Below are positions 38,663-64,000 of a stretch of 64,000 nt of DNA, one piece after another. The DNA is from Blastococcus atacamensis (GTDB taxonomy: Bacteria > Actinomycetota > Actinomycetes > Mycobacteriales > Geodermatophilaceae): contig NZ_POQU01000007.1 in assembly GCF_002938425.1 (NCBI RefSeq), positions 1 to 64,000 of the forward strand. Reading direction: 5' to 3'. Position 1 is the stretch's first letter; the number at the start of each line of letters is the position of its first letter. The notes below the pieces were generated by a model, which saw nothing but the letters and a program-made list of their open reading frames with translations, did not search any database and had not been told where the DNA came from. A program made the translations under genes and the position numbers.

Positions 38663-39430
38663 TCATTTCTCGGCGCCGGCCCCGCGCCGGCCGAGAAGGC
38701 CGAACGGTCGCATGCGACGGCGCGGCTCCGGCCGGCGATCACCGGCCGGGCCGTCATCGGGGAGCGGGTCGGTGCGGGCCTCGTGCAGGAAGGAGGCGGT
38801 GACCGAGGCGGCGGTCGAGGAGTCGAGCCCAGGGTGCTCCGCGATCAGCCCGCCCAGCACCCGGAGCAGCGCCTCGGCCACGACCTGCCCCACTTCCTGA
38901 TGAGCTTCGATCGGTCGGCCCATCGGGTCGGCGATGTCGTCGTCGTCCCCGCCGCTGCGCCGGCCGCGTGCCGCCGCCAGGGCGGCGACCAGTGCGCGTG
39001 CCCGACTCCCGAAGTTCTCCCCCATCGGGCGCTCGCCGTCGACGACATCGAGCAGGGCCGCCGCCTCCCGCAGGGTGAACGTGCGTGACAGCGCACGCGG
39101 AACGAGTTCGAGCACCGTCCGACGGTGCTCGCGCGTGAGAGTGAGCACGAGGTCGGCCTCGGCGACCATGCCCGCCTCGAGCTGCCGGGCCGTGAATCCG
39201 GCGGGTTTCCCACCCAGGCCCTCCAGGACCAGCGCGGTGTCGGGATGCATCCCCGAGCCGCTGCGGGCTCGCGTGCCGGCGCTGGACAGGCGCATGTCGC
39301 CCGCCGCCGTCCCGAGGACCTCGTGCAGATAGGCACGCCCGAGCCGCTCCCCGAGGGCGGATCGGCAGATGTTGCCCGTGCACACCAGCAGAACGGTGAA
39401 GGGGGTTGTCGAGATCTCTCGTTCGGGCAC
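38663..39430 (-). CDS. Low-molecular-weight protein-tyrosine phosphatase (Wzb-like), copy 1
   Basis: A 255-residue phosphatase. The P-loop LLVCTGNICRSAL carries the catalytic C-x5-R, and the general acid Asp is in DIADPMGRP. It is longer than typical Wzb/Etp (~150): an insert around residues 120-150 and a ~70-residue tail ending in a basic Arg cluster. It should dephosphorylate the tyrosine tail of the BY-kinases at 43575 and/or 58935 and so set polymer length. GTG 39430. The paralogue at 56546 has the same layout with a shorter tail. Confidence 0.87.
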   Translation of the reverse strand: MPEREISTTPFTVLLVCTGNICRSALGERLGRAYLHEVLGTAAGDMRLSSAGTRARSGSGMHPDTALVLEGLGGKPAGFTARQLEAGMVAEADLVLTLTREHRRTVLELVPRALSRTFTLREAAALLDVVDGERPMGENFGSRARALVAALAAARGRRSGGDDDDIADPMGRPIEAHQEVGQVVAEALLRVLGGLIAEHPGLDSSTAASVTASFLHEARTDPLPDDGPAGDRRPEPRRRMRPFGLLGRRGAGAEK

Positions 39431-39603
39431 GGCTCGAGTGTGGCGGGCCGTGGGGGTTCCTCGACACCTCCGTGGGGGTGGACTCCTCCCAATGGATGGC
39501 GCGGACTAGGCGCGAGGCAACATTCATGGAACATTGACGTTTCGAGTGTGCGCCCGGGGCCACCCATTTTCCGACACGCCCGCTACCGCGAGAAGGACCG
39601 ACG

Positions 39604-40509
39604 ATGCCCCGGAGCGGGATGAACACGACTCTCCGCGAGTCCCTCCGACCCGTGCACCGCACGATCGCCAGCCTGCTTCCCCTGCCCGCCAGACGGCGCT
39701 ATCTCTATCTGGCCGGCCACGGCCGACTGCCTCGCCTCCGTGAGCCACGCCTGTTCACGGAGAAGATCAATTGGCGGATCGTCCACGACCGCCGACCGGA
39801 ACTGGCGTGGACCTGCGACAAGCTCGCGATGAAGGACTACGCGATGGGTCTGCACCAGGAGACCGGCGTCGAGGTGCCCGAGACGCTGTGGTCGGGCGAC
39901 GACCTGGGCGCCGTGCTCGGCCGGACCTTCCACCGCCCGTGGGTGCTCAAGCCGAACCACCGGAGCGGCCTCGTCCGGTTCGGGCGCGCCTCCGAGCCGG
40001 TCGACGCGCAGCTGGTGGAGTCGACCAGGACATGGCTGCGCGACGACCAGAGCGTCCTGCTCGGCGAGTGGGCCTACAGCCAGGCGCGGAAGTTGTACGT
40101 GATCGAGGAGGACATCTCCGCAGGGGAGCCGCTGGACGACTACAAGTTCCTCGTGTTCGGCGGCAAGGTCGTCGTGATCCAGGTGGATCGCGGCAGGTTC
40201 ACGAGCGGCCACGCGCGCACCTTCTACACCCGCGACTGGCAGCCCGCTCCCGTCGCGGACATCGTGTCGATCGGCGAGCAGGTACCCGCGCCGGAAAACT
40301 TGGACGCCATGGTGCACGCGGCCGAAGCGCTCGGCGGCGCCTACGACTTCATGCGGATCGACCTCTACAGCACGCGGGGCAAGGTCTGGCTCGGTGAGCT
40401 CACGCCGTATCCCGCCGGCGGCACGATCCCGTTCGAACCGCGCCAGTTCGACCGCTACCTCGGTGAGCAGTGGACCCTGCCGAGTCTCAGCACCGTCTCG
40501 GGCCGGTGA
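39604..40509 (+). CDS. TupA-like ATP-grasp protein, copy 1
   Basis: A 301-residue ATP-grasp enzyme of the TupA type, named from teichuronopeptide synthesis in an alkaliphilic Bacillus, where it links an amino acid to a uronic acid. Family features are LFTEKINWRIVHDRRPEL, CDKLAMKDYA, WVLKPNH (ATP Lys), YKFLVFGGKVVVIQVD and FMRIDLYSTRGKVWLGELTPYPAGG (metal-binding acids). It may decorate a uronic-acid polymer, consistent with UDP-glucose dehydrogenase nearby. Start ATG 39604. A decayed tandem copy follows 95 bases downstream. Confidence 0.85.
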   Translation: MPRSGMNTTLRESLRPVHRTIASLLPLPARRRYLYLAGHGRLPRLREPRLFTEKINWRIVHDRRPELAWTCDKLAMKDYAMGLHQETGVEVPETLWSGDDLGAVLGRTFHRPWVLKPNHRSGLVRFGRASEPVDAQLVESTRTWLRDDQSVLLGEWAYSQARKLYVIEEDISAGEPLDDYKFLVFGGKVVVIQVDRGRFTSGHARTFYTRDWQPAPVADIVSIGEQVPAPENLDAMVHAAEALGGAYDFMRIDLYSTRGKVWLGELTPYPAGGTIPFEPRQFDRYLGEQWTLPSLSTVSGR

Positions 40510-40603
40510 TTCCCACCCCCACCGCACACGACGGGCCTAGGTCCGTCAGCGGACCTCCAGCCGTTCCCGCAAGCGCTGGGCATGCCGCGGAACAGCCGCG
40601 TCG

Positions 40604-40767
40604 CACCGCAAGGTCGGCGTGATCCAGGTGGACTCGGAGGACTTCGAGGACAGGTGTGGGCGGCCGAGGTGCTCGGTCGCCCCTTCGGTGTCATGCGCGT
40701 CGATCTCTACGACGTGCACGGCTCGATCTGGTTCGGCGAGGTCCCCCCGTACCCGGCCGGCGGCGAC
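40604..40767 (+). pseudogene. Decayed TupA-like gene fragment
   Basis: Two pieces of TupA-like coding sequence in different frames: RKVGVIQVD (from ~40607) and VLGRPFGVMRVDLYDVHGS followed by WFGEVPPYPAGG (to ~40767). They match the intact neighbour's GKVVVIQVD and LGGAYDFMRIDLYS / WLGELTPYPAGG. About 45 codons between them are deleted and the frame has shifted. The second piece is in frame with the following glycosyltransferase and runs into it without a stop. Confidence 0.8.
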
Positions 40768-40773
40768 CGCACC

Positions 40774-41877
40774 GTGATACGAGTACTCAACGTGGGACCG
40801 ACGGTCGACCAGCCGGGCGGGATGGCGTCCGTCGTGGCCGAGCTCGTCACCCAGAACGAACAGAGTGCCTCGCCCGTGGACCTTCGCGTCGTCGACTCCG
40901 GCGGAATCGGCTCGCCGCCGCGGCGCGGCGCTCGGTTCGCCCGTGTCCTGCTCGGCGCGGCCACCGCCCGCGTGGATGTCGCCCATCTCCACGTCGCCTC
41001 CCGCGGCAGCACCTGGCGGAAGGCGGCCGTCGCCCGGGCGTGCTCGCTGCGCCGGCTGCCCTACGGGATCCACCTGCACGGCGCCGGGTACGCCGCCTTC
41101 CTCTCCTCATCCGCACCGGCCCGGAAGCGCCTGGTCGAGCGCTTCTTCCACGGCGCCGCCTACGTCGTGGTCCTGGGCGAACCGTGGGCACGTCTCGTCG
41201 CCGACGAGCTCTCCGTCCCCCGGTCGAAGATCCATGTGGTCCACAACGGCGTCGCGGGTGGGGCCGCACCCGTCGTGCCCTGGCCCGCGGACCGCCGGAA
41301 GCGGGTGGTCTTTCTCGGCCAGATCGGCGCACGGAAGGGCGTGCCGGAGCTGTTGCAGGCCTTCGAGCAGCTCGACGCCGTCCCGGACGCCGAACTGGTG
41401 CTCGCCGGCCCTCCGTCCCCGTCGGAGCCGGACGTCGTCCGCCAGGTGGAGGAGGCCGCCCGCGCCCGACCGGGCCGGATCAGCTACGTGGGCGCGCTGT
41501 CCCGGGCCAGGTCCCAGGAGTTGCTGGGCGAGGCCTACGTCCTGGCGCTGCCCAGCCATGCGGAGGGGCTCCCGATGGTGGTGATCGAGGCCATGTCACA
41601 GGGCGTTCCGTGTGTGACGACGCCCGTGGGCGCCATGGAGGAAGCGGTCACCGACGGCGTGAACGGTCTTCTCGTCGAGCCGGGGAACACCGACGCCCTG
41701 GCCGAGCAGCTACGCCGGCTGCTGGACGACGAGCCGCTGCACGACGCGATGGCCCGCTCGGCCTACGACACCTGGATGCGAGGCTTCGACGCACGCTCCA
41801 TGTACGAGGACATCCGGGCGCTGTGGGTGCAGACGGCCGGTCGAGCGGTCGGCGGGAGCGGCAACCGCGCTCAGTAG
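40774..41877 (+). CDS. Family 4-type (GT-B) glycosyltransferase
   Basis: A 367-residue GT-B enzyme. The N-terminal acceptor domain starts at IRVLNVGPTVDQPGGMASVV, followed by AHLHVASRGSTWRK. The donor half has VFLGQIGARKGVPELL, LPSHAEGLPMVVIEAMSQGVPCVTT (E-x7-E retaining motif) and a C-terminal GF-DA region. It probably adds a sugar to the lipid-linked repeat. GTG 40774 is taken as the start since IRVLNVGP is the normal N-terminus. The frame is open back through a TupA remnant to ATG 40693, so a fusion product is possible. The stop overlaps the convergent sugar transferase by 7 bases. Confidence 0.8.
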   Translation: MIRVLNVGPTVDQPGGMASVVAELVTQNEQSASPVDLRVVDSGGIGSPPRRGARFARVLLGAATARVDVAHLHVASRGSTWRKAAVARACSLRRLPYGIHLHGAGYAAFLSSSAPARKRLVERFFHGAAYVVVLGEPWARLVADELSVPRSKIHVVHNGVAGGAAPVVPWPADRRKRVVFLGQIGARKGVPELLQAFEQLDAVPDAELVLAGPPSPSEPDVVRQVEEAARARPGRISYVGALSRARSQELLGEAYVLALPSHAEGLPMVVIEAMSQGVPCVTTPVGAMEEAVTDGVNGLLVEPGNTDALAEQLRRLLDDEPLHDAMARSAYDTWMRGFDARSMYEDIRALWVQTAGRAVGGSGNRAQ

Positions 41878-43481
41878 GCACCGCGACCGCGGACGACGGC
41901 CCCGACGGTCTTCCAGAGAATCATGAGGTCGAAGCTGAGCGACCAGTTCTCCACGTAGCGGACGTCGATGCGCACCGAATCGTCCCAGGAGAGATCCGAG
42001 CGCCCGCTGATCTGCCACAGACCGGTGATGCCCGGCTTCACCAGGAAGCGCCGGCGCATGTCGGCGCCGTAGCGCTCGGTCTCGCTCGGCAGCGGCGGCC
42101 GCGGACCGACCAGGCTCATGTCGCCGCGCAGCACGTTGAGCAACTGGGGCAGCTCGTCGAGGGAGTACCGGCGCAGTGCCCGGCCCACCCGGGTCACCCG
42201 CGGGTCGGCCTTGCTCTTGTAGAGCACCCCGTTGCCGTCGTTGGCGGCCGTGAGCACATCGGTCATCTGGTCGGCACGATGCACCATGCTCCGGAACTTG
42301 AGCATCGAGAAGGTCTGCCCGTCGCGGCCGACGCGCGTCTGCCGGAAGAGCACCGGCCCGCGGCTGGTGGTCTTGACCGCCAGCGCGATGCCGAGGAACA
42401 ACGGGAAGGTGAAGGCCAGCGCCAACGCTGCCAGACCGCCATCGACGGCGGCCTTGCCCAGCCGTCGCACGCCGCGCAGCTCGGGCCGCTCGACATGCAG
42501 CAGCGGCAGCCCGCACACCGGCCGGATGCCCACGCGCGGACCGACGAACTCGGTGACGGCGGGCGCGAGCAGCAGCTCGGCCTCGGTCGTCTCCAGTTCC
42601 CAGCCGAGCCGGCGCAGCGCCGCACCGTCCAGCTCGGGGCACGGCATGACCGCCACCGTGTCGACCTCGTACCGATGGACGACGTCGACCACCTCGTCGA
42701 TCGCGCCGAGCACGGGGAGACCCTGGAAGTCGGCGGAGCCGTCGACGTCACGCCCGCCCGGGAGACAGCAGCCGATCACCCGGTAACCGTGGTAGGCCGC
42801 CCGCTCCAGCTGGGCGTGCAGCGAGGCCACGGCGCCCCGATGCCCTACCACGACCGTCGTCTGCTGGAACGCGCCGTCGGTGCGGGCCCGGTGCAGCCGC
42901 TGCCTGCGCCAGTAGCGCTGCAGCAGGGTCAGCAGCGTCGCCAGCGGAATCGTGACGACGACGAAGCCCCTCGAGATATCCAGGTCCAGGCCCCACGCCA
43001 CCGCGGCCACGAGGGCGAACAGGAGCACGGCCGAGTCGAAGACGCGCCGGAACTCGTCGGGCCCCACCCAGAGGAAACGCTCCTCGTAGGTGCGCCCGAC
43101 GTGCATGGCGGCCAGCCAGAGGACGGGCAGGAGCACCGCGGCCCAGAGGGAGTCCGCAGTCGCACCCTCCGCGTAGGTGCCGAACCGGACGAAGTAGCCG
43201 ATGACCGACGCGAGGACGACGCAGACGGCATCGCCGAGGATGATGTCGCGGACGTAGGCCGACCGCCAGGCGCGACGGGCACTCGTCCCCTCACCGCGGA
43301 GGCGCCGGATGAGGGAGAGCCGGGAGCCGGTCCTGACGAGGCCGTCGGTGAAAACGCCCTCGCGCGAATGGATGGAGATCCTGCACCCCCGTGCATCAGG
43401 TCGTTGTTCCGGCGTCAGCAGCACTGGGCCCAGCGCGTCCAGAGCGCAGGGTGATGGGCGGCATTGCCCGAGCCACGTCAA
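41871..43481 (-). CDS. Undecaprenyl-phosphate sugar phosphotransferase (CpsE/WbaP-like), copy 2
   Basis: A ~536-residue initiating transferase. Four helices follow RRLRGEGTSARRAW (residue ~60), with a VGHRGAVAS nucleotide-like domain, a fifth helix, and the catalytic end with LKFRSM, DELPQLLNVLRGDMSLVGPRPP and KPGITGLWQISGRSD. Compared with the paralogue at 57222 the N-terminus is ~30 residues longer, so the true start may be GTG 43424 rather than GTG 43481; neither has a good ribosome site. It follows the BY-kinase gene by 93 bases and forms the end of the polymerase-GT-GT-kinase-transferase module. Confidence 0.88.
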   Translation of the reverse strand: MTWLGQCRPSPCALDALGPVLLTPEQRPDARGCRISIHSREGVFTDGLVRTGSRLSLIRRLRGEGTSARRAWRSAYVRDIILGDAVCVVLASVIGYFVRFGTYAEGATADSLWAAVLLPVLWLAAMHVGRTYEERFLWVGPDEFRRVFDSAVLLFALVAAVAWGLDLDISRGFVVVTIPLATLLTLLQRYWRRQRLHRARTDGAFQQTTVVVGHRGAVASLHAQLERAAYHGYRVIGCCLPGGRDVDGSADFQGLPVLGAIDEVVDVVHRYEVDTVAVMPCPELDGAALRRLGWELETTEAELLLAPAVTEFVGPRVGIRPVCGLPLLHVERPELRGVRRLGKAAVDGGLAALALAFTFPLFLGIALAVKTTSRGPVLFRQTRVGRDGQTFSMLKFRSMVHRADQMTDVLTAANDGNGVLYKSKADPRVTRVGRALRRYSLDELPQLLNVLRGDMSLVGPRPPLPSETERYGADMRRRFLVKPGITGLWQISGRSDLSWDDSVRIDVRYVENWSLSFDLMILWKTVGAVVRGRGAY

Positions 43482-43574: not shown

Positions 43575-45134
43575 TCACCGTCTGGTCGCGCCGGAGGGCT
43601 TCGTCTTCGACGCCACCGCGTCCCCGCTCGGCGGACCACTGGGCCGCCGAGCCGCCCGGCGCTTCTTGGTGGCCGTACCCTGCTCCGCCGGCGGCGTCGG
43701 CGCGGCCCGCGGGGCACGCGCAGGTGCCGCGGCCTCGGATGCGGGGACGGGGACGGGGACGGGGACGTCGGAGTCGTAGCCGTACACCCTCGACGCGTCG
43801 GCCGAGGGCGGCACGACGGTGAGCACGACGCCCAGCGTCTTCGCCCCGACCCGGGTCAGCACCGCCGCCGACTGCTCCAGTTCCTCGCGCCGGGTCTTCC
43901 CGTGCTGGACGGTCAGCACGACCCCGTCCATGACCACGGCGACCGCACTGCCGTCGGAGACGGGCAGCAGAGGTGGCGTGTCGAAGATGACGAAGTCGTT
44001 GCGGGCCCGCAGGTCGTCGACCAGGCCGGCGAGCCGGGACGATGACAGCAGTTCGCTCGGGTTGGGCGGGATCGACCCCGCCGCGAGCACGGACAGGTTG
44101 CCGTTGCCGTAGGTCTGCAGGACGTCTCCCAGGTCTGCGGCACCGGACAGGATGCTGGTGAGGCCGGCCCCGTCCACCAGACCCAGGTACTTGGTCACCC
44201 GAGGACGCCGCAGATCCGCTTCCACGATGGCCACCCGGTGACCGCCCTCGGCCAGGCTGATGGCCAGGTTGACCGCCACCGTGCTCTTGCCCTCCCCTGC
44301 CACCGAACTGGACACCATGATCACGCGCGGCGGCTGGTCGACGTTCAGGAACTGCAGGTTGGTGCGCATCTGACGGAAGCTCTCCGCGGCCGCGGACCGG
44401 CTGTGCCGCGCCAGGACGTGCTCCTTGGCGAGGTGGGGGTCACGGGTGACGACACCGATCACCGGCGCACCCGCCACGGCGGAGGCGACCTTCGGGTCCC
44501 GCACCGAGCGGTCCAGCCGCACCCGGAAGTACGCGCTGGCGAAGCCGACGACCAGTCCGATCACCAGGCCGACGGCGATGTTCCGGTAGAGGTTCGGCGA
44601 CGCGGGCGAGGTGGGCACCTCGGGACTGTCGAGGACGGTGACCTTGACGGGGACCGTCGTCACCGGAGGCTCTGCCGGGTCCGTGGGCGTCGTCGTGGTC
44701 GTCTCCACCTCTTCCACGAGGAGGGTGAACTCGCTGGCGATGGCGGCGGCCAGGTCCCGGGCGCGCTCCGGCGAGGAATCCGTGACCACGATGTCCAGGA
44801 CCGTGGTGTCCGGGATCACCGAGGCCTCGATCCTCTCCTGCAGCTCCCGCGGGGAGAGCTCCAGCTCGAGATCCGAGATCACCCGGTCGGCCAGCCGCTC
44901 GCTGGTGAGCAGCTGGACGTAGGACGTGACCCGGTTCTGGGAGAACTGGCTGCCCTGGAAGGCGGCGGCGGTGGACGTCGCATCCGTCGACGTCACGAAC
45001 AGCTGCGTGGCGGAGGTGTACGTCGGCGTCATCAGCAGAGCGGTCACGGCACCGACCGCTCCGCCGAGGAGGAGCCCGATCACGGGCAGGAACCACCCGG
45101 CCCGGAGCGCCGCCATCGTGTCTCTGAATTCCAC
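43575..45134 (-). CDS. Wzz-domain BY-kinase (tyrosine autokinase controlling polysaccharide export), copy 1
   Basis: A 519-residue protein. Two helices (residues ~12-35 and ~190-210) flank an extracytoplasmic Wzz domain with TSATQLFVTSTD and AAAFQGSQFSQNRVTSY. The cytoplasmic kinase has Walker A GEGKSTVAVNLA, A' VAIVEADLRRP and Walker B FVIFDTPP. The tail YGYDSD plus a VPVPVPVP stretch and basic end supplies the autophosphorylated tyrosines. It regulates chain length and polymerase activity together with the phosphatases at 38663/56546. GTG 45134 (MEFRDTMAALR) has CGAGGAATCA upstream and aligns with the paralogue's start. Confidence 0.9.
   Translation of the reverse strand: MEFRDTMAALRAGWFLPVIGLLLGGAVGAVTALLMTPTYTSATQLFVTSTDATSTAAAFQGSQFSQNRVTSYVQLLTSERLADRVISDLELELSPRELQERIEASVIPDTTVLDIVVTDSSPERARDLAAAIASEFTLLVEEVETTTTTPTDPAEPPVTTVPVKVTVLDSPEVPTSPASPNLYRNIAVGLVIGLVVGFASAYFRVRLDRSVRDPKVASAVAGAPVIGVVTRDPHLAKEHVLARHSRSAAAESFRQMRTNLQFLNVDQPPRVIMVSSSVAGEGKSTVAVNLAISLAEGGHRVAIVEADLRRPRVTKYLGLVDGAGLTSILSGAADLGDVLQTYGNGNLSVLAAGSIPPNPSELLSSSRLAGLVDDLRARNDFVIFDTPPLLPVSDGSAVAVVMDGVVLTVQHGKTRREELEQSAAVLTRVGAKTLGVVLTVVPPSADASRVYGYDSDVPVPVPVPASEAAAPARAPRAAPTPPAEQGTATKKRRAARRPSGPPSGDAVASKTKPSGATRR
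43743..43766. repeat. Hexanucleotide tandem repeat (GGGGAC x4)
   Basis: Four perfect 6-bp copies near the 3' end of the first BY-kinase gene, encoding Val-Pro repeats just after the tyrosine-containing tail. Length variation would be in frame and change the spacing of the tail. Confidence 0.8.
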
Positions 45135-45238
45135 TGATTCCTCGTTTCCGGTATCCGACCCCCGCACGGGTGCCAGGTGCAGCCTTTCTACGACGGCGCC
45201 GTTCATGGTGCCGGGCGCCACCCCCGACCGAGCAGTTG

Positions 45239-46324
45239 CTAGGCCGAGTTCCCCTGCGTGCCGCGCTCAGGGTTCGACGTCGCGGTGCCCGGCGGATGTG
45301 ACCCCGCCACGCACGCCGTCCAGTACGTGACGAAGGTGTGCTTGACGGCGTCCGTCGAGTACCGCTCCTGCACCCGCTTCCGGGCCATCCGGCCCAGTTG
45401 CCGCGCCATGTCCGGCGAGTCGGCGATCCGGCGGATCGCCGCTCCCAGGGCCAGCGGATCGGCCGGTGGTACGACGAGACCCGTGTCACCGATCACCTCG
45501 GCCACCTGGCCGACGTCCGTGCCGATGACCGGCGTCCCCAGGCTCATCGACTCCAGGATGCTCATCGGCATGGCCTCGGCCCGGCTGGGCAGGACGAGGG
45601 CGACCGCGGTCCGCAGCCGGGCGAGCACCTCGGCCGGTTCGACCGAACCCTCGACGACGACGCCGTCGGGAAGGGGCGCCGGCAGGTCGAAGCGGGGTTC
45701 GAGACCCCCGAAGACGGTGAGCTGGTGGCCGGTCACCTGCGCCGCGGCCCAGGCCTCGAGCAGGACGTCCGCGCCCTTGCGCAGCCCGACCTCACCGGCG
45801 AAGACGAACCCGGAGCGCGCGTCGGAGGACGGTTCGTCGTCGACCGGCACCGCGTTGGCGACCTTGATCGTCGGCACGCCCAGCGGTTCCAGCACGTCGG
45901 ACGCCGGGTCGGTCAGCACGAACACCGCCGACGGCCACCGCAGCACCCGGCCGGCCAGCCGGCGGTGCTCGCGCACGAAGGCGACGAACTGCGAGCCGTG
46001 CACCAGGACGGTGCAGTGGACGCCGCGCCGGCGGGCGATCCCGAGCAGCAGTCCTTCCCGGAGGAACGACCCCTGCTGGGTCAGGTGGAAGTGCCAGACG
46101 TCGGTGGAACTCGTCGGCGCGAACACGACGCGCAGCGCCGTCCGGACGAAGGACGTCAGCGTGCGGCGGCGGTTCCCGTGCCAGTAGGTCGGCCACTCCC
46201 GGACCTCGAGGTCCGGGTCGGCCCACGAGTTCATGGTGCGCACCACGGAGGCCACACCGCCGGCGCCCTGGGACGCGTTGCCGATCTGGGTCACGCGCAG
46301 GGCGCTGCGCGCCCCGGCGGTCAC
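45239..46324 (-). CDS. Family 4-type (GT-B) glycosyltransferase
   Basis: A 361-residue GT-B enzyme starting at ALRVTQIGNASQGAGGVASVV. The N-domain has DVWHFHLTQQGSFLREG, and the donor domain has FVFAGEVGLRKGADVLLEAW and LPSRAEAMPMSILESMSLGTPVIGTDVG (E-x7-E). Its closest relative in the window by motif is the gene at 40774. GTG 46324 overlaps the stop of the preceding glycosyltransferase (GTGA), and it precedes the BY-kinase in the module. Sugar specificity is unknown. Confidence 0.83.
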   Translation of the reverse strand: MTAGARSALRVTQIGNASQGAGGVASVVRTMNSWADPDLEVREWPTYWHGNRRRTLTSFVRTALRVVFAPTSSTDVWHFHLTQQGSFLREGLLLGIARRRGVHCTVLVHGSQFVAFVREHRRLAGRVLRWPSAVFVLTDPASDVLEPLGVPTIKVANAVPVDDEPSSDARSGFVFAGEVGLRKGADVLLEAWAAAQVTGHQLTVFGGLEPRFDLPAPLPDGVVVEGSVEPAEVLARLRTAVALVLPSRAEAMPMSILESMSLGTPVIGTDVGQVAEVIGDTGLVVPPADPLALGAAIRRIADSPDMARQLGRMARKRVQERYSTDAVKHTFVTYWTACVAGSHPPGTATSNPERGTQGNSA

Positions 46325-47289: not shown

Positions 47290-47407
47290 CGTCTCACCTG
47301 CCGTTCGGTACTCGTCGCCCTGAGCTGACACATCCAGGAGCGTAGAGCGCCCACGGCTCGGGGTCCTTTTCGTGGGCATCTTTCGCCACAAGGCCTGACG
47401 GGACCGC

Positions 47408-52901: not shown

Positions 52902-53059
52902 CCCCTGCCTTCCGGGCACCACGTCGTGCCACACCAGCGATTCAGCCTTGGCCCGCCGTGCGACGCTGTCGGCAGACGAGTCACGGCACGAGCCGGTGCA
53001 GGATACCTCCGGCGGCAGGGGGCGGCACCGGACGGATGACCGGCGCCCCGCCGGCTCCC

Positions 53060-56545: not shown

Positions 56546-57211
56546 TCATTTTGCGGCGGCGGAGCCCGCTTCGGTGGACGCTTCCTTGCCGACCCGGGCG
56601 TCGCAGTCGGCGATGCGCCGGAGGACCGGCAACAGCGCCGCGGCGACGGCCGCGCCGACCTCCTCGTGCGCTTCGACGGGCCGCCCCATGGGATCGCGGA
56701 TGTCGTCGGCCTCGCTGCTGGATCGGCGGGACCGTGCCGCGGCCATCGCCTGCACGAGGCTGCGAACGCGGGCGGCGAAGTCGGCACCGGCGGGCGGCTC
56801 CGCGGCATCGTCGAGGTGGGCGGCGATCAGGTCCGCGGCCTCGATGAGGGTGAAGGTGCGGGCCAGCATGCGGGGTGCCTGCTCCAGCACGTCCTGCCGG
56901 TGGGCGCGGGTCATGGTGAGGACGAGGTCCGCCTCTGCGGCCATCTGCCCGGCGAACTGCCGGGCGCGGAAGTCGCCGGCCTCGGCGCCCAGGCCCTGGA
57001 GCACGAGGGCGCTGTCGGGGTGCATCTCTGCGTCGACGACGGCCCTCGTCCCGGCGCTTTCCAGCCGCACGGCGGCTGCCCGCTCCTTCATGACCTCGGT
57101 CAGGTACGCCCGGCCGAGCCGTTCGGCCAGCGCCGAGCGGCAGATGTTGCCGGTGCAGACGAGCAGGACCGTGACGTCGGGTGAGGTGGGCCGGCGGCTG
57201 GTCACCGGCAC
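56546..57211 (-). CDS. Low-molecular-weight protein-tyrosine phosphatase (Wzb-like), copy 2
   Basis: A 221-residue phosphatase with P-loop LLVCTGNICRSAL and general acid in DIRDPMGRP, same architecture as 38663 (LGRAYL, MHPDSALVLQGLG, TRAHRQDVLE). It lies 10 bases after the initiating transferase of its module, so kinase, transferase and phosphatase are one unit. It would reverse BY-kinase tyrosine phosphorylation. Start GTG 57211. The C-terminal ~30 residues are Ala/Glu-rich and dispensable-looking. Confidence 0.88.
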   Translation of the reverse strand: MPVTSRRPTSPDVTVLLVCTGNICRSALAERLGRAYLTEVMKERAAAVRLESAGTRAVVDAEMHPDSALVLQGLGAEAGDFRARQFAGQMAAEADLVLTMTRAHRQDVLEQAPRMLARTFTLIEAADLIAAHLDDAAEPPAGADFAARVRSLVQAMAAARSRRSSSEADDIRDPMGRPVEAHEEVGAAVAAALLPVLRRIADCDARVGKEASTEAGSAAAK

Positions 57212-57221
57212 ATCTTCGCGG

Positions 57222-58739
57222 TCAGTACGCGCCCGATCCTCGCAGGACCGCTCCGAACGTCTTCCAGAGGATCATCAGGTCGAAGGTCAGCGTCCAGTTC
57301 TCCACGTAACGGACGTCGATCCGCACCGACTCGTCCCAGGAGAGGTCCGAGCGGCCGCTGACCTGCCACAGGCCGGTGATGCCGGGCTTGACGAGGAGGC
57401 GGCGGCGCATGTCGAACCCGTACTGCTCGACCTCGCGGGTGACGTGCGGCCGCGGGCCGACGAGGCTCATGCTGCCGTTGAGCACGTTGAACAGCTGGGG
57501 CAGCTCGTCGAGGGAGTAGCGCCGCATGATGGCGCCGATGCGCGTGACCCGCGGGTCGCGCTTCATCTTGAACTGGACGTCGTTGCCCTCGTTGCTCTGC
57601 TCGAAGAGGGTGTCGACGATCTTGTCCGCGTCGGGGACCATGCTGCGGAACTTGTAGACCGGGAAGGCCTTGCCGCCCAAGCCGATGCGGTCGTGCTTGT
57701 AGAAGACGGGCCCGCGGCTGGTGAGCTTGACCGCGAGGGCCAGAGCGATCAGCACGGGTGCGATGAGCACGATGCCGACGAAGGCGGCGGTGCGATCGAA
57801 CATGCCCTTCACGATGCGTCGGTGGCCCTTGAACTCGGGGCGCTCGACGTGCACGAGAGGCAGGCCGGCGACGGCGCGGATGCGCACCCGGGGGCCGGCC
57901 ACCTCGGTGACGGCGGGGGCGAGCAGCAGCTCGGCTTGGGTCTCCTCGAGGTCCCAGCCGAGGCGGCGCAGGGCTGCTCCGTCCAGCTCGGGCGACGGCA
58001 GTACCGCCACGGTGTCCACCTCGTACCGGCGAACGACGTCGACGACCTCGTCCAGGGACCCCAGGACGGGCAGGCCGTGGAAGGTGGCAGCCGAACTGCC
58101 GGCCTGCTGCGGAACGCAGCAGCCGATCACGCGGTAACCGTGCTTGGGCTGACGAATGAGCTGATCGTGCAGCTCGGCCACCCCACCCCGGTGACCGACG
58201 ACGATGGCCGTCTGCTGGAACTCACCCTTCGCCCGGCGCCGGTGCAGCAGCTCGCGCTGGAGGATGCGGTGCCCCATGGTCAGCACGGCCGCCAGCGGCA
58301 GCGCGACCACCGCGAAGCCTCGCGCCAGCTCGAGCCGGAAGGCCCAGGAGAGGGTGCCGACAGTGGCCAGGAGCATGGCGGCGGCGAAGAACACACGCCG
58401 GAACTCCTCCGGACCGGTCCAGAGGAAGCGCTCCTCGTAGGAACGCGCCACGAGCATCGCCGTGACCCAGAGCAGCGGGAACAGGAAGATGACCGCAGCC
58501 AGACTGCCGGCCCCCCCGAGAACGCCACTGACGGGCTGGGCTTCCGCGAGCTGCCCGAGGGCGCCGGCCACGACAGCGGCGCCCGCGTCGAGCGCGACCA
58601 GGCGGCGGACATAGTCAGCACGCCACGCGCGGCGGGCCTCGGTGCCCTCGCCACGAAGGCGAGCGGCGCTCCACGACCCGCGGCGATTGCGCTGCTGTGG
58701 AACGAGGCGAACCGCCTCGTCACTCCGGACATCGAGCAT
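57222..58739 (-). CDS. Undecaprenyl-phosphate sugar phosphotransferase (CpsE/WbaP-like), copy 3
   Basis: A 505-residue initiating transferase. Four helices start after RLRGEGTEARRAW, with VGHRGGVAEL in the central domain and a fifth helix. The catalytic end has YKFRSM, DELPQLFNVLNGSMSLVGPRP and KPGITGLWQVSGRSD. It differs from copies 1 and 2 in having VTREVEQYGFD instead of LPSE-x-ER after the GPRP motif, and LFEQSNEGNDVQFK in the preceding loop, so it may use a different sugar. ATG 58739 is chosen over TTG 58745. It sits between the BY-kinase and the phosphatase. Confidence 0.9.
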   Translation of the reverse strand: MLDVRSDEAVRLVPQQRNRRGSWSAARLRGEGTEARRAWRADYVRRLVALDAGAAVVAGALGQLAEAQPVSGVLGGAGSLAAVIFLFPLLWVTAMLVARSYEERFLWTGPEEFRRVFFAAAMLLATVGTLSWAFRLELARGFAVVALPLAAVLTMGHRILQRELLHRRRAKGEFQQTAIVVGHRGGVAELHDQLIRQPKHGYRVIGCCVPQQAGSSAATFHGLPVLGSLDEVVDVVRRYEVDTVAVLPSPELDGAALRRLGWDLEETQAELLLAPAVTEVAGPRVRIRAVAGLPLVHVERPEFKGHRRIVKGMFDRTAAFVGIVLIAPVLIALALAVKLTSRGPVFYKHDRIGLGGKAFPVYKFRSMVPDADKIVDTLFEQSNEGNDVQFKMKRDPRVTRIGAIMRRYSLDELPQLFNVLNGSMSLVGPRPHVTREVEQYGFDMRRRLLVKPGITGLWQVSGRSDLSWDESVRIDVRYVENWTLTFDLMILWKTFGAVLRGSGAY

Positions 58740-58934
58740 GGACAACCGCGAACCCCCGTGCGCGCTGGCCCCGGACCAGCGCCCCGGGCTTACCGATCAG
58801 TGCAGATCGGGAACTTCATCGTTCAACCGACGGGAGGAAGGTACCGATAAAAAGCTCGCCGCGGAAGGTTTCGCTCCTCACGTTCGGGGCACCGACGCCC
58901 TTCTAGGTGACAGACGCCTTCCCGCCCGTGGGGC

Positions 58935-60335
58935 CTAGGCCCTGCGACGACCGGTCCTGGGGGCAGACTCCGCCCCAGGTGCTGACTCCCCGTAGTCGGA
59001 GCCGTAGCCATACGCGGCGCCGACCCCGGCTTTGGGCGGCACGATGTTGAGAATCAGGCCGAGACTCCGCGCCCCAACCCGCTCCAGCGTTGCTGCGGCC
59101 TGTTCCAGCTGATCAGTCCGCGTCTGCCCGTAACGAACCGACAGGACGACACCGTCGACGATCACGGCGATGCCCGTTGCGTCCGCGACAGGCAGAAGCG
59201 GTGGCGCATCGATCAGCACATAGTCATGGGAGACCCGAAGCTCTTCGAGAAGAGAGAGCATGTGCTTGGAAGCAAGCAATTCGCTCGGGTTAGGAGGGGC
59301 GGGCCCCGCGCCGATGACAGAGAGCCCCGTATCGGCGAACGGCTGGATAACGTCCGCTACGCCCGCGGTGCCGGCCAGCACGTTCGTCAGTCCGACTCCT
59401 CCGACAAGTCCGAGATAACGAGTGACCCGAGGACGGCGAAGGTCAGCGTCCACTAGTGCGACCTTGCGCCCCGCCTCGGCGAGGGCCAACCCCAGGTTGA
59501 TGACCGCGGTCGTTTTGCCCTCTGACGGCATGGCGCTCGACACCATGATGACACGCGGCGGGTTGTCCACGTTCAAGAACTGCAGGTTCGCCCGAAGCTG
59601 GCGGTAGTCCTCCGCTGCGCGGCTCTGCCCCTCGCGGTTGAAGAAGTGCCGCTCCGCCAAGTGGTCGTCCCGGATGACGGCGCCGATTACCGGCACCCTT
59701 CCGAGCCGACCGGCCTGCTCTGGGTCCTTGATTGATCGATCGAGGTACCCGCGCAAGAGGACCGCAAAGGCACCGAGCACCAGTCCGAGAACGACCCCAA
59801 GCGCCAGGTTGCGAACCGTGTTCGGCGAACTGGGTGCCTCAGGCAGTTCGGCCGCGTCGGTGACTGTCACCTTCACAGGCGCTACAGCAGCGCCAGAGGG
59901 GGTCTCCAGCTCCTCGACGAACTCCTTGAACTGCACCCCGACAGAATCTGCGATTCGCTGGGCCAGTTCGGGCGATGGATCCGTCACACTCACGTCGATC
60001 AGCACCGTGTCGGCAGGCGCAACGGCCGTGATCTCAGCGGCGAGTTCCTGCGGGGTCATGTCGAGACCAAGATCGTCGATGACGCGGTTTGCGACCTCCT
60101 CGCCCCTCAAAAGCCGCGCGTAGGACGTCACCCGCTGCTGGGAGAACTGGCTGCCCTGGAACGCTGCAGTCGTGGTGGTTGCGTCCGTCGTCAACACGAA
60201 AAGCTGAGTCTGCGCCGAGTAGAGCGGGGTCGCCGTAGCGCTGACCGTCGCACCCACGACCAGGCCCAATAGCGCACCGAGCAACGGCAGCCACCAGTAC
60301 GTCCGCAGCCGCCCCACGGCGACCCTCAGCTCCAC
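58935..60335 (-). CDS. Wzz-domain BY-kinase (tyrosine autokinase), copy 2
   Basis: A 466-residue protein with Wzz domain (SAQTQLFVLTTDATTTTAAF, QFSQQRVTSY) between two helices, then the kinase: Walker A SEGKTTAVINLG, A' VALVDADLRRPR, Walker B YVLIDAPPLLP. The C-terminal tail AYGYGSDYGES carries three tyrosines, one more than copy 1. GTG 60335 (MELRVAVGRLR) aligns with the start of copy 1; the frame remains open ~70 codons upstream, without family character. It follows the pyruvyl transferase by 103 bases and precedes the initiating transferase. Confidence 0.9.
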   Translation of the reverse strand: MELRVAVGRLRTYWWLPLLGALLGLVVGATVSATATPLYSAQTQLFVLTTDATTTTAAFQGSQFSQQRVTSYARLLRGEEVANRVIDDLGLDMTPQELAAEITAVAPADTVLIDVSVTDPSPELAQRIADSVGVQFKEFVEELETPSGAAVAPVKVTVTDAAELPEAPSSPNTVRNLALGVVLGLVLGAFAVLLRGYLDRSIKDPEQAGRLGRVPVIGAVIRDDHLAERHFFNREGQSRAAEDYRQLRANLQFLNVDNPPRVIMVSSAMPSEGKTTAVINLGLALAEAGRKVALVDADLRRPRVTRYLGLVGGVGLTNVLAGTAGVADVIQPFADTGLSVIGAGPAPPNPSELLASKHMLSLLEELRVSHDYVLIDAPPLLPVADATGIAVIVDGVVLSVRYGQTRTDQLEQAAATLERVGARSLGLILNIVPPKAGVGAAYGYGSDYGESAPGAESAPRTGRRRA

Positions 60336-60438
60336 CGACGCCCAGCCTCTCCATCGACGTGTCCGCTCCCCGGCAGGCACCCGACGAAGCCAGCGGAGAG
60401 TACGCCATTGAAGCGCATCGAGCGCAATCGCCGCGCCC

Positions 60439-61503
60439 TCACCAGTCGTCCACCAGCGGCATTGCCAGGGTGCGCAGCTCTTGGATGAGGGCGAGGCGCT
60501 CGCGCCCCGCCTTGACCCGGCCGGCAGTGACAGCCTCGTCATAGGCTTGGCGCAGGTCCGCGGACTTGGTCAACTCCGCGACCTGCCTCAGAACTGTTTC
60601 GACATCAAATGACCAGACGTTGTGGACGTAGTCACCCAGTCCCAGGTCCCCGAACGCCCCCCACCCTTTTCGCTCGTACGCGAGATGGACGACGTAGTGA
60701 CCCGCGTTGAGCGCCATGAGAGCGGCGTGCAACCGGACAGCGATGACAACCCGGGGCGGACCAGTCAGCAGCTCGCTGGCCGTGACAACGTGGCGCGGAG
60801 CCAGGGACGCCATCGCGTCCACATCCGAGTTGGCGCCCACGTCGCTTTGTACGTATCCGTCGAACTCCTCCAGCCGCCCCGCCAGCCGGCGGACGGGATC
60901 ACTGACGCGCCCGAAGACGGCACGCACGCTGAGGACCGGCGGCCCGGCGGGGGACGAATCGCGCCTCCTCGCCACTGCCTCAGCCGAAGAGACCACCATG
61001 TCGGCGACTCGCCTCGCGTTCGGGCCACCGAACTCGGCCATCGAGCGATCGTCCCGGAGGTAGACCCGGTCGATGCGACGAAGGAGGCGCTTGACCGCAG
61101 CACCGAGCAGCGGCGGAAAGGGCCCTACCGATTGAGGTAGGTAAGCGCGCCGGGCGGGGTAACGGCCGGCGATCACGAGTTGCACCACGTGGATCACGAC
61201 GCACTTGAGCGCCGCTGACAACGTCGGACCTCTCAGATATCCGCCACCCACGCCAACCACGAGGTCATAGCGTCGCCAGTACCGAACGACGTGTCGGGGC
61301 AGCCCGGTCCGCGACAAGAACGCCCTCGGGTGCGTGCCCACGACCTCTACGTCGGGATAGGCGAACGACTCGGGATAGTGCGCTGCAACCGCGAGCTCGA
61401 CGTCCGCACCGAAGGCTGAGCGAACGACCTCGATTGCCTCATCGACGAGAAGTCCATCTCCACGGTTGGCGGCACTGTAGGCGTGCAGGATGAGGACCTT
61501 CAC
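60439..61503 (-). CDS. Polysaccharide pyruvyl transferase family protein
   Basis: A 354-residue enzyme of the pyruvyl transferase fold, which adds pyruvate ketals from PEP to sugars. It has the N-terminal LILHAYSAANRGDGLLVDEAIE and VVGVGGGYLRG, the middle YLPQSVGPFPPLLG and VYLRDDRSM, and the C-terminal VVIAVRLHAALMALNAGHYVV (catalytic Arg/His). Pyruvylation would make the polymer acidic. GTG 61503 overlaps the stop of the upstream glycosyltransferase (GTGA). Confidence 0.85.
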   Translation of the reverse strand: MKVLILHAYSAANRGDGLLVDEAIEVVRSAFGADVELAVAAHYPESFAYPDVEVVGTHPRAFLSRTGLPRHVVRYWRRYDLVVGVGGGYLRGPTLSAALKCVVIHVVQLVIAGRYPARRAYLPQSVGPFPPLLGAAVKRLLRRIDRVYLRDDRSMAEFGGPNARRVADMVVSSAEAVARRRDSSPAGPPVLSVRAVFGRVSDPVRRLAGRLEEFDGYVQSDVGANSDVDAMASLAPRHVVTASELLTGPPRVVIAVRLHAALMALNAGHYVVHLAYERKGWGAFGDLGLGDYVHNVWSFDVETVLRQVAELTKSADLRQAYDEAVTAGRVKAGRERLALIQELRTLAMPLVDDW

Positions 61504-62537
61504 GAGAGAACCCGTCGGTAGACAGCCTGGTGCGCATCGATCGAGGTATCCCATGTAAACGCTCGCGCCCACGCCGGCCCTGCCTGGCCGCAAGCGCGTA
61601 ATGCCGCCGTGTCCCCTAGAGCACGAATCAGCCCGTCCTCGATGTCGTCCACCCCCGTACCGGAGAGCCGGAGCGCCGGGCCAGCGACCTCGGCGAGCGA
61701 GCCGTTGCTCGAACACAGCACCGGGGACCCGCATGCCAGCGCCTCGAGGACCGGGAAGCCGAATCCCTCGTACAGGCTCGGGAAGAGGAAGAGCGAACAG
61801 TTTCGCAGAAGCCAGAGCTTCTCCTCGGGAGAGACGAACCCGAGCCATCGCACCGCGGGTCCGGCCGCTTCGATCTTCTTCAGCGTCTCGTCGTAGTTCC
61901 ACGCGGGCTTTCCGGCCAGCACCAGGATCGGCGCGTTGTCGTCTCTCGCCCTTAGACGCGCGTGGGCGTCCAGCAGCGCGTCCAGATTCTTCCGTGGCTC
62001 GATGTTCCCCAGGTACAACAAGAAGTCGCGTGGAACGAGACCGTCGACGGCCCCCACCGAAGCATCTTCTTCGGTGGCGATCCGGTAGGTCGGGTCGATC
62101 CCATGGTGGATCACCTCGACTTCGTCCGGCCGAAGTCCGAAGACAGACGCCACGTCGTCTGCACTTGACCGGCTCACCGTAATCACGGCATCTGAGAGGC
62201 AGATGGCACGCGCGACACGGCGACGCCACACCGTCTCCTGTCGAGGGGTGCGCGCCGTAGAGATCCAGCGGCTGGCGATGCCGTGCACCGTGACCACCGT
62301 GGGGGTCCGCGAGGTAACGAGGGGGCCGGTGTCCGCCGTGTAGTGCAGCAAGGCATCGTTTCGGCGGCCAAGCGCGAACAACGACTCCTTGACCATCGTG
62401 AGGGAGGCCGATGTGCTGAAGGGCATGGCGCTGACCGTCCAACCCCGCGCCCGGAGCCCGCCTGCCAAGGCCTGGCTGTAGGTGGTGTTCCCGCCGACGT
62501 GACGCTCCAGGATGCGTCCTGGCATGTAGACCTTCAC
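61500..62537 (-). CDS. Family 4-type (GT-B) glycosyltransferase (mannosyltransferase-like)
   Basis: A 345-residue GT-B enzyme. It begins KVYMPGRILERHVGGNTTYSQ and has HGIASRW, AVITVSRSSADDV, VIHHGID, YLGNIEPRKNLDALL, and the donor E-x7-E site LFPSLYEGFGFPVLEALACGSPVLCS. It resembles mannosyl- or rhamnosyltransferases of capsule loci; dTDP-rhamnose could come from rfbBD. GTG 62537 overlaps the stop of the preceding gene (GTGA). Confidence 0.85.
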   Translation of the reverse strand: MKVYMPGRILERHVGGNTTYSQALAGGLRARGWTVSAMPFSTSASLTMVKESLFALGRRNDALLHYTADTGPLVTSRTPTVVTVHGIASRWISTARTPRQETVWRRRVARAICLSDAVITVSRSSADDVASVFGLRPDEVEVIHHGIDPTYRIATEEDASVGAVDGLVPRDFLLYLGNIEPRKNLDALLDAHARLRARDDNAPILVLAGKPAWNYDETLKKIEAAGPAVRWLGFVSPEEKLWLLRNCSLFLFPSLYEGFGFPVLEALACGSPVLCSSNGSLAEVAGPALRLSGTGVDDIEDGLIRALGDTAALRACGQAGPAWARAFTWDTSIDAHQAVYRRVLS

Positions 62538-63568
62538 CCAGCCACCTTCCGATAGATGCCGGCCAGCCCGCCCGGTGGAACGAGGTCGCGCAGTCCCTGC
62601 AGCATGGCCGCTGACCGACCGATCGCTTCCTCGTACGCCGACTCCGAGGCATGCAACGCCTGCAACATCTCCGCTGCGCCCGAGGGCGTCGATGCCTTGT
62701 CCATCGCGACCCCCTCAAAGGCCGCGATTTCTCGCACCACGACCGGAAGCCCTAGTGCTGCCGCGTCGAGGACGCTAATCGGAAAGCCCTCATAGGAAGC
62801 CGAGTGGAAGTACGCAGAACACCGCTTCAGCTCTTCGCGAACTGCAGATGGCGACAGCCAGCCGGTCACCTCCACTCCGGCCGCTCGGAGCTCGCGCACG
62901 GCCTCATCCTCGCCGGTGCCAATCCAGACAAACTCGCAGTCGTCTCCTCGCCCGACGAGCTCGTTCCGGACCATCACGAGAAACTCGGGATCCTTCTGTG
63001 GAGAGATACGACCAACCATCGCCACGCGCCGATTCTGACGCGCTGCCGATGTTGGGGACTCCCCCAAGCCGCTGACACTGGGCTCGTTCGGCACAATGGT
63101 GACGGGCCCCGCGTAACGCGAATTCGTAGTCCGAGCCTGACGCACCTCGAACGGGCTCACAGCAATCGTCGCCGCCGACCGGCGGCTGAGGAACATTTCA
63201 ACCAGCCGGACGCTCAGTCGGAGCGGTCGGGGGCTCGTGGGGTCCGAAAATTTGTAGCAATGCGGCTGATAGATTACAGGCAGCCCGAGACTGAAAAGCC
63301 GCGTGTAGATCCCTGCCCAACTAGAATGAGCGTGCACCACATCTGGCTGCAATTCCAAGACCGCCTTCCGCAACACCCTCACCCGACGCCATCCGCCCCG
63401 CGGGAGCTCGACCGCCACACGGAAAGCGGGCTCAGGGTCGACACCACCCGCGTAGACCAAGAGGTGGTCGACGCCTCGCACCGTTCGAGCGATGGAATCG
63501 ACACTAGAGCGGACTCCGGCCGAGTAGCACTCTGTAACGTGAAGCACTCGGATATCTGCGTCAGTCAT
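62534..63568 (-). CDS. Family 4-type (GT-B) glycosyltransferase
   Basis: A 344-residue GT-B enzyme. It has the N-terminal IRVLHVTECYSAGVRSSVD and VHAHSSWAGIYTRLF; the donor half has AMVGRISPQKDPEFLVMV and YFHSASYEGFPISVLDAAALGLPVVVRE (E-x6-D instead of the usual E-x7-E, an altered retaining motif). ATG 63568 lies 6 bases inside the overlap region with the polymerase stop and follows GGAAGA; the coding sequence is noticeably less GC-rich than the left part of the window. Confidence 0.83.
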   Translation of the reverse strand: MTDADIRVLHVTECYSAGVRSSVDSIARTVRGVDHLLVYAGGVDPEPAFRVAVELPRGGWRRVRVLRKAVLELQPDVVHAHSSWAGIYTRLFSLGLPVIYQPHCYKFSDPTSPRPLRLSVRLVEMFLSRRSAATIAVSPFEVRQARTTNSRYAGPVTIVPNEPSVSGLGESPTSAARQNRRVAMVGRISPQKDPEFLVMVRNELVGRGDDCEFVWIGTGEDEAVRELRAAGVEVTGWLSPSAVREELKRCSAYFHSASYEGFPISVLDAAALGLPVVVREIAAFEGVAMDKASTPSGAAEMLQALHASESAYEEAIGRSAAMLQGLRDLVPPGGLAGIYRKVAG

Positions 63569-63573
63569 CTTTT

Positions 63574-64000
63574 TCAATCTTCCCGTCGACTCGACGACAA
63601 GCCGCCCCGAAGCGGGCGCGAATCCCCCATCTCATCATCATGAGGCGACGCGCCGGCTTGCCCGCGCAGCTGAACAGCCAAGACCACGCACGCCACGAGG
63701 CAGGGCGTAAACCGGCCTAGACTCCAATAGTTAAACCGAACCAATTCCAAGAGCCCAACGAACCCCGTCGCATAAAGAGCCAAGCATCCAAGGTCGCCGC
63801 TCTTCATCCGCAGGAAGATCACTCCGGCAATCAATCCGAGCATTGTCCAGTACACGACCATGCCGGCCAGCCCGAGTTCCCCTGCGGTGACTAGCACAGA
63901 CCCCACGTTGGTGAAGTTTGGATTCGCGAATCCGACGAGTTGACTGAACCACCACATTCCTGGCGCGACCCCGTCGACGGTGGCCGAACCAGCAAGTACA
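63574..64000 (-). CDS. O-antigen polymerase-like membrane protein, C-terminal part
   Basis: The last ~141 residues of a membrane protein that continues beyond the window. A loop with WWFSQLVGFANPNFTNVGSVLV and a Gly-Ser-x-Leu-rich patch is followed by helices AGELGLAGMVVYWTMLGLIAGVIF, LALYATGFVGLLELV and FTPCLVACVVLAVQL and a short polar tail. The position at the head of a GT-GT-pyruvyl transferase-kinase module matches the polymerase of the paralogous module at 47408. Base composition is near 55-58% GC, lower than its surroundings. Start outside the window. Confidence 0.65.
   Translation of the reverse strand, partial: VLAGSATVDGVAPGMWWFSQLVGFANPNFTNVGSVLVTAGELGLAGMVVYWTMLGLIAGVIFLRMKSGDLGCLALYATGFVGLLELVRFNYWSLGRFTPCLVACVVLAVQLRGQAGASPHDDEMGDSRPLRGGLSSSRRED

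Follow-up and report, generated by a model that had tools for sequence, protein, structure and literature searches.

The first 64,000 nucleotides of the 80,575-bp contig NZ_POQU01000007.1, from the draft genome (3.89 Mb) of the soil and stone bacterium Blastococcus atacamensis, are referred to here as the window. We read them, with a probability of about 85%, as carrying one exopolysaccharide island between the dTDP-rhamnose genes rmlBD and a glutamine-synthetase-like flank, in which two independent Wzx/Wzy systems stand side by side and no recent duplication has taken place. The left gene set (LEFT) spans ~33 to 56.4 kb, and the right gene set (RIGHT) runs past the window end to contig position 67119. 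Each side has a phosphoglycosyl transferase (PGT), glycosyltransferases (GTs), Wzx-like and Wzy-like proteins, a Wzz/BY-kinase (BYK), and a low-molecular-weight (LMW) phosphatase (PTP), with the suffixes L and R marking the side; this supports an original prediction, made from the letters of the DNA, of two complete systems, perhaps for different polymers, and we take the systems to be probably separate. The open reading frames (ORFs) named at that stage all exist where they had been placed and belong to the expected families (three Bac_transf PGTs, two BY-kinases, two LMW phosphatases, a pyruvyl transferase, and GT4/GT28 genes). The further proposal, that the two systems are duplicated modules with the same gene order, fared differently.

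Left and right counterparts within the genome share 59 to 62% identity for the PGTs, 53% over 457 amino acids (aa) for the kinases, and 60% over 182 aa for the phosphatases. Left versus right GTs reach ~25 to 30% at most, over local stretches and at the level of general GT4 similarity, and a comparison of the full-length putative polymerases WZY_L and WZY_R finds no similarity at E 1e-6. The left transferase GT_L1 has no right counterpart, and a pyruvyl transferase is found on the right instead. A common gene order is therefore seen in the core functions and in the way a Wzy locus is generally arranged, and fails gene by gene, the shared core being PGT, kinase, and phosphatase only. PTP_L does not lie directly after PGT_L; two opposite-strand genes (TupA-like ATP-grasp and GT4) separate them in 7/7 of the genomes that carry LEFT. 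The phosphatases do share CTGNICRSAL, but not the equal length ascribed to them (255 versus 221 aa), and the third PGT, described as solitary, is part of LEFT and occupies the same place in four other genomes. As signs of duplication, both shared motifs were rejected: FQGSQ[FL], out of the kinases’ AAFQGSQFSQ, is also present in kinases from other genera in the family, and the 11 phosphatase rows (out of 50) with CTGNICRSAL each come from this same family.

Protein rows entered the trees with at least 380 (kinase), 400 (PGT), or 150 (phosphatase) aligned residues, so that short PGTs and fragments were left out, and approximately unbiased (AU) tests used reduced sets of 34/67 kinases, 43/48 PGTs, and 39/50 phosphatases under the model LG+G4. 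The divergent kinase row G007_103685 was excluded from the kinase AU set and from the count of tail tyrosines given below. Two outgroup rows of the PGT tree (the fourth PGT of this strain’s genome, G000, and one of G001) are probably in the wrong frame, with branches of 4 to 6, and no result is based on them; an intended third outgroup row (G011) was not found and is hence absent. In neither the trees nor the searches is any left protein closest to its right counterpart, and sisterhood of the left and right proteins of G000 is rejected for the kinase (p-AU 7e-5), the PGT (2e-8), and the phosphatase (0.043), which speaks against module duplication as predicted. When the whole left clade is joined with the G000 right protein, p-AU is 0.012 for the kinase, 0.42 for the phosphatase, and 5e-56 for the PGT, the last saying little, as the constraint tears PGT_R of G000 from its own clade; when it is joined with the wider right lineage, p-AU is 0.017 for the kinase and 0.33 for the PGT. 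The strain-level tests therefore exclude only a duplication after the left clade arose, and, for the kinase, descent of both sides from one ancestor deep in the family is weakly disfavoured. Gene conversion between the PGTs was also considered and rejected, judged by the tree and not by a recombination method: the three G000 PGTs fall into separate clades and give no sign of it.

A scan of named genomes with the two kinases put the closest relatives of G000 in Blastococcus. Within a comparison set of 23 Blastococcus genomes, G000 included, LEFT, which we read as one old cassette, is present and syntenic in seven (G000, G004, G007, G018, G019, G020, and G022). These comparisons of synteny and DNA used fetched stretches of 12 to 40 kb per genome rather than whole genomes. 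Order and orientation are kept in the other six, running PTP, ATP-grasp, GT4, PGT, BYK, GT, GT, Wzy, UDP-glucose 6-dehydrogenase (UGD), Wzx, lyase, and acyltransferase. The third PGT (PGT3) and a helix-like gene precede these genes in G004, G007, G020, and G022, with PGT3 orthologues 78 to 92% identical at the same place; the contigs of G018 and G019 stop short of this point. The second ATP-grasp gene (ATPG2) and a GDSL gene were seen only in G000 and G007. Identity of the G000 LEFT proteins to their orthologues is 69 to 84% for the kinase, 80 to 88% for the PGT, and 59 to 80% for the phosphatase. In the respective trees, the seven rows of BYK_L, of PGT_L, and of PTP_L unite in a single clade (SH-aLRT 100, 100, and 99), with PGT3 forming a clade of five (99). 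In a search of 96 genomes of the family, which included 19/23 Blastococcus (G003, G009, G013, and G016 were not drawn), WZY_L matched the seven cassette genomes at 65 to 100% (65 to 84% in the six other Blastococcus) and nine others at 32 to 36%, while 80 were without match. LEFT is absent from the fetched stretches of G003, G009, G013, and G016.

The rpoB tree places G000 with G017 and, more widely, with G010, G012, G014, and G013, in none of which LEFT was seen (fetched stretches and, for all but G013, the whole-genome WZY_L search). A concatenate of 11 LEFT proteins joins G000 and G007 (100/100), while this pair is rejected by rpoB (p 4e-6, 23 rows) and by the adjoining rmlBD (p 3e-5, 19/23 genomes); LEFT has therefore been exchanged or differentially retained within the genus. 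A single clade of the seven cassette genomes is also rejected by rpoB (p 2e-43). Among the fetched stretches, the best DNA matches are G017, G010, G012, and G014 at 31 to 32.7 kb (including rmlBD), and G007, alone or first, at 33 to 56 kb, except within UGD (49001 to 50000), part of which is matched best by G009 and G003; they are G006 and G019 at 57 to 58.7 kb and G009 at 67.5 to 70 kb.

RIGHT is a mosaic, largely peculiar to this strain. G+C content at third codon positions (GC3) is 66.7 to 80.1% in the seven genes from BYK_R to a GT2 gene (58.9 to 67.1 kb) and 85.5 to 96.4% in the other 22 genes measured; it returns to 92 to 96% after the GT2 gene, and PTP_R and PGT_R, at ~91%, are host-like. 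From ~60 to 67 kb, no DNA match was found in any fetched Blastococcus stretch, and relatives of WZY_R occur in 12 other genomes of 200 from the order, all at 28 to 34% identity. PGT_R groups with G006, G019, Blastococcus CT_GayMR16, and G007 (support 100). BYK_R groups with G019 and CT_GayMR16 (94), and the enclosing clade (95) includes Modestobacter, Klenkia, and Geodermatophilus; the top identity of BYK_R is 65% (Klenkia terrae), Blastococcus rows reach 62 to 63%, and the nearest by tree path is Blastococcus CT_GayMR16. The tree placement of PTP_R is unsupported. Nearest relatives in other genera had been named in advance as evidence that would tell against duplication, and this is what we observe for PTP_R, whose best match in the 200 order genomes is 69% (G033, another genus of the family) versus 64% at best in its own genus, and half so for BYK_R. 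It is not what we observe for PGT_R (82% identity to two Blastococcus, G006 and G019) or for the left proteins, whose nearest relatives are in Blastococcus.

The order BYK-PGT-PTP-UGD-rmlB-rmlD is found in G009, G014, and G005, and likewise in G017 with one extra PGT; in G009, the flank matching contig 67.5 to 70 kb (glutamine-synthetase-like by eye) comes after a variable stretch that separates it from this core. LEFT in G000 stands at the UGD interval of those relatives, a site at which other genomes carry UGD, in some with a LytR-CpsA-Psr (LCP) gene or a further PGT. In our reading, RIGHT occupies the position of the BYK-PGT-PTP core that adjoins UGD-rmlBD in other Blastococcus, but with an atypical, low-GC3 block of kinase, GT, pyruvyl transferase, Wzy, and Wzx genes, and LEFT (~23 kb, with its own UGD, two PGTs, a lyase, and ATP-grasp ligases), patchy in the genus, sits where others have UGD. 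Two full surface-polymer systems in one genus thereby arise via stacking and exchange at one island, not via recent copying.

Several observations weigh against this reading. An old common origin of the left and right PGTs and phosphatases is compatible with the p-AU values of 0.33 and 0.42 given above. The right cores of G000 and of G017, its nearest rpoB relative, do not group together, and “resident” therefore applies to the position of the G000 core, not to its alleles. LEFT DNA identity between G000 and G007 is mostly 82 to 88% (74% over one 1.1-kb stretch), about as high as for rmlBD (87%) in this genome pair, and a transfer of LEFT therefore need not be recent. An old cassette with several losses fits as well (four changes on the rpoB tree), and rpoB is one gene. 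Finally, the Wzx and Wzy assignments rest on hydropathy and position, with WZY_L also showing a Wzy_C match below cut-off; WZX_L, WZY_R, and the right flippase-like protein have no family match.

Three other explanations account for parts of these data. The left and right genes could cooperate on a single decorated polymer, for which the sole UGD found in the genome lying in LEFT, the shared rmlBD, and the adjacency of the sets would speak; each side nevertheless has its own Wzx-like and Wzy-like proteins, PGT, kinase, and phosphatase, and G020 has LEFT without the right core in its fetched region, while G009 and G014 have a right-type core without LEFT, which makes such a composite locus improbable. 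Slightly less credible still is a transitional state, with one system under displacement and partly inactive. G022 carries LEFT plus a short ORF (G022:C7:146328-146900, 191 aa) that matches the last 176 residues of PGT_R at 90% identity and is, judging from this match, a truncated right-type PGT, and an ATP-grasp remnant is found at 40582 in G000; neither side of G000 has an interrupted core ORF, however, and the stretches with catalytic motifs are retained.

The least probable explanation is that a single module was duplicated locally in this lineage and that the GTs and polymerase of one copy were later replaced. It would agree with the same core genes at 53 to 62% identity in similar order, and with the deep common origin that the tests do not reject for PGT and phosphatase. 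Against this, the left kinase and PGT are closer to their orthologues in six other genomes than to the right ones, sisterhood is rejected for all three G000 pairs, and for the kinases it is also rejected with the whole left clade. By raw identity, several PTP_L orthologues (59 to 62%) match PTP_L no better than its right paralogue does (60%), yet the tree unites these orthologues (99). We retain the reading of two systems stacked at one island that is prone to exchange.

LEFT is preceded by rmlD and rmlB (30740 to 32577, reverse strand; Pfam RmlD_sub_bind and GDP_Man_Dehyd/Epimerase), shared precursor genes for dTDP-rhamnose synthesis at the left flank. PGT3, a member of LEFT, is a third initiating PGT (35562 to 37175, forward; PF02397, 9.7e-69), followed by a conserved, weakly beta-helix-like protein (37191 to 38513, reverse; AlphaFold2 mean pLDDT 53, core partly confident) with no Pfam match, for which the top Foldseek matches are pectate lyases, none at E<=0.001. 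PTP_L, 255 aa, lies at 38663 to 39430 (reverse; PF01451, 4.8e-18; P-loop CTGNICRS, D-loop DPMG), followed by the TupA-like ATP-grasp ligase ATPG1 (39604 to 40509, forward; PF14305, 7.8e-27) and a GT4 glycosyltransferase (40582 to 41877, forward; PF00534). The start of the GT4 ORF (40582 to 40770) is a remnant of ~42 aa from an ATP-grasp C terminus (52% identity to ATPG1 over 42 aa), and G007 has a 116-aa fragment ORF at this place. The initiating transferase PGT_L (41871 to 43481, reverse) matches PF02397, TIGR03025 above cut-off, and WbaP structures. BYK_L (43575 to 45221, reverse), with two tail tyrosines, matches PF02706, TIGR01007 above cut-off, and CapA/CapB and Wzc structures.

The GT4 enzyme GT_L2 (45239 to 46657, reverse; PF13692 and PF00534) probably has its true start at ~46325, and GT_L1 (46321 to 47391, reverse) is a PssDE/WelK-like GT28 protein and putative glucuronosyl transferase, matching NF046028 WelK (2.9e-33), PssE, and PssD, all below curated cut-offs. 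The putative polymerase WZY_L (47408 to 49159, reverse) has a Wzy_C match at E=0.0024, below cut-off, and 12 hydrophobic stretches in a crude scan. UGD (49283 to 50614, forward; PF03721/00984/03720) is the single match in a search of its own draft genome. The putative flippase WZX_L (50622 to 51983, forward) is proposed from 11 hydrophobic stretches and its position. ATPG2 is a second TupA-like ATP-grasp protein (52014 to 53306, reverse; PF14305, 2.5e-29; true start probably ~52922), and a polysaccharide lyase (53060 to 54001, reverse; PF14099, 1.9e-35) has a lipobox-like start by eye and no relative among solved structures; its predicted model (mean pLDDT 35) was not used. A membrane acyltransferase (54292 to 55488, forward; PF01757, 3.9e-34) follows, and a GDSL esterase (55492 to 56271, forward; PF13472; 75% in G007) forms the right end of LEFT.

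RIGHT opens with PTP_R, 221 aa (56546 to 57211, reverse; PF01451, 1.6e-20; GC3 91.4), and the initiating transferase PGT_R (57222 to 58745, reverse; PF02397; GC3 90.6). BYK_R (58935 to 60542, reverse; PF02706 and TIGR01007 above cut-off; GC3 76.7), with three tail tyrosines, is the first gene of the low-GC3 block and is followed by the pyruvyl transferase (60439 to 61563, reverse; PF04230, 1.4e-12) and two GT4 glycosyltransferases, GT_R2 (61500 to 62537, reverse; PF00534) and GT_R1 (62534 to 63577, reverse; PF13579). The putative polymerase WZY_R (63574 to 64000, reverse), assigned by hydropathy and position and without Pfam or NCBIfam match, is cut by the window edge, its full ORF spanning contig 63574 to 64983 (469 aa); beyond it on the contig lie a flippase-like gene and then the GT2 gene (66235 to 67119). 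Further out, outside the window, contig 76228 to 77742 encodes a processive-looking GT2 glycosyltransferase, which may belong to a third polymer system, of the synthase type.

PGTs load a sugar-1-phosphate on undecaprenyl phosphate, GTs extend it, Wzx flips the product, and Wzy polymerises it; the Wzz/BY-kinase cycles through phosphorylation of its tail tyrosines, which the LMW phosphatase reverses. Each system would follow this usual route, with its BY-kinase and LMW phosphatase controlling assembly. G000 has four Bac_transf PGTs, three in the window and one on another contig. All three window PGTs combine PF13727 with PF02397 and match TIGR03025 above cut-off, with the WcaJ and WbaP models below cut-off, and on this domain make-up are classed as large monotopic PGTs (WbaP/WcaJ type). 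The product of LEFT may be a glucuronate-containing polymer, perhaps with amino acids, as suggested by UGD, the PssDE/WelK-like transferase, the two TupA-like ATP-grasp proteins, and the lyase of family PF14099, which presumably includes glucuronan lyases. Two LCP genes were observed at 22756 to 23949 and at contig 73596 to 74714; LCP genes, candidates for ligating polymer to peptidoglycan, lie near cassette ends in several relatives. The data show the anatomy, synteny, composition, and trees; all activities, the polymers, attachment by LCP ligases, and any crosstalk via phosphatase, undecaprenyl phosphate, or the single UGD are inferred.

Both kinases match PF02706 and combine the Wzz domain with the Walker A (GEGKST in BYK_L, SEGKTT in BYK_R), A' (VEADLR, VDADLR), and B (DTPP, DAPP) motifs of BY-kinases. 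They are the two of this type in G000; elsewhere in the genome there are one partial match, at 34%, and two short matches. The Glu in Walker A' of BYK_L was rejected as a special feature, being common in the family. Left-clade kinases have two tail tyrosines in 7/7 cases, as one YGY followed by a long tyrosine-free tail; taking the conserved LGVVL as its starting point, the tail as a whole has 86 to 147 residues. Three to five tail tyrosines are seen in the remaining 24 kinase rows of Geodermatophilaceae (five rows with three, nine with four, and ten with five). Few tail tyrosines are not unique to the left clade outside the family, where 4 of 35 rows have one or two. Some Microbacterium loci carry a second kinase with one or two tail tyrosines beside a four-tyrosine kinase. 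For VpsO of Vibrio cholerae, polymer output is reported to depend critically on how many tail tyrosines are phosphorylated and on where they lie (PMC7485978). Different set-points of the left and right kinases are predicted.

The two LMW phosphatases matched in G000, PTP_L and PTP_R, both carry the P-loop CTGNICRS and the D-loop DPM and match PF01451 above cut-off, as LMW phosphatases do; their tyrosine specificity is putative. The aromatic residue of the D-loop, which stacks on the substrate ring (PMC7948962 and PMC7485978, both available in part), is Met in both, and the substrate range may differ. The D-loop reads DP[IMV] in 35 of 37 Geodermatophilaceae rows (DPY in two) and DP[YF] in 13/13 other actinobacterial rows, and an aliphatic D-loop was accordingly rejected as a feature of this locus, being family-wide (exceptions are G040 with DPF and two Klenkia rows with DPY). 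In a survey of 26 loci of the order, in 3 of which the P-loop motif was not found, the D-loop is aliphatic in 7/8 loci of another family (f8), and the rows of the other five families have DPY where the motif was found.

At its locus, G004 combines two kinases with a single phosphatase, with a third kinase and a second phosphatase together on another contig; G019 has two kinases and one phosphatase in its whole draft assembly, in which the contig ends near the phosphatase. Shared or competing control of both systems, as the original prediction had put forward, is plausible because the loci of these two relatives have one phosphatase for two kinases and because the sole UGD found sits in LEFT. 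It is more speculative, and in our view doubtful, that the circuits differ in set-point through the shrunken left tyrosine tail while one aliphatic-D-loop phosphatase serves both kinases and tunes two polymers unequally, with LEFT perhaps making a glucuronate-rich, amino-acid-linked polymer resembling teichuronopeptide; the single phosphatase is suggested by the loci of G004 and G019. Such relatives with two kinases and one phosphatase offer a natural experiment on the insulation of polysaccharide kinases.

Among the open-licence papers listed, we found no treatment of these loci in Blastococcus or Geodermatophilaceae, and nothing relevant on second or tandem capsule loci or on a D-loop isoleucine in LMW phosphatases. 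The known systems named here are compared as far as the available parts of the sources describe them. In Myxococcus xanthus, the phosphatase PhpA is reported to act on both BtkA and BtkB, which are BY-kinases (PMC12004946), and nucleotide sugars and undecaprenyl phosphate are described as limited and common to several pathways (PMC12802240), whereas two kinase/PGT/phosphatase cores stacked at one site are not described in the available parts of these two sources. The pairs VpsO/VpsU and Wzc/Wzb of Vibrio (PMC7485978, PMC7948962) likewise consist of a membrane BY-kinase with a tyrosine tail and an LMW phosphatase with a C(X)5R loop; here, in contrast, two pairs stand side by side, the D-loop Tyr is replaced by Met, and BYK_L has only two tail tyrosines. 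Lactiplantibacillus plantarum WCFS1 also has several clusters per genome (cps1 to cps4), with cps2 and cps4 each having a tyrosine-phosphoregulatory set and a priming transferase, and clusters without such a set may borrow one (PMC3539956). Its wzd, wze, and wzh are separate, of Firmicute type, whereas the island described here encodes a fused Wzz and kinase together with an LMW phosphatase. Stacking is an ordinary bacterial route to a second surface polymer, and the island described here is of a known kind, with the kinase tails as its oddity.

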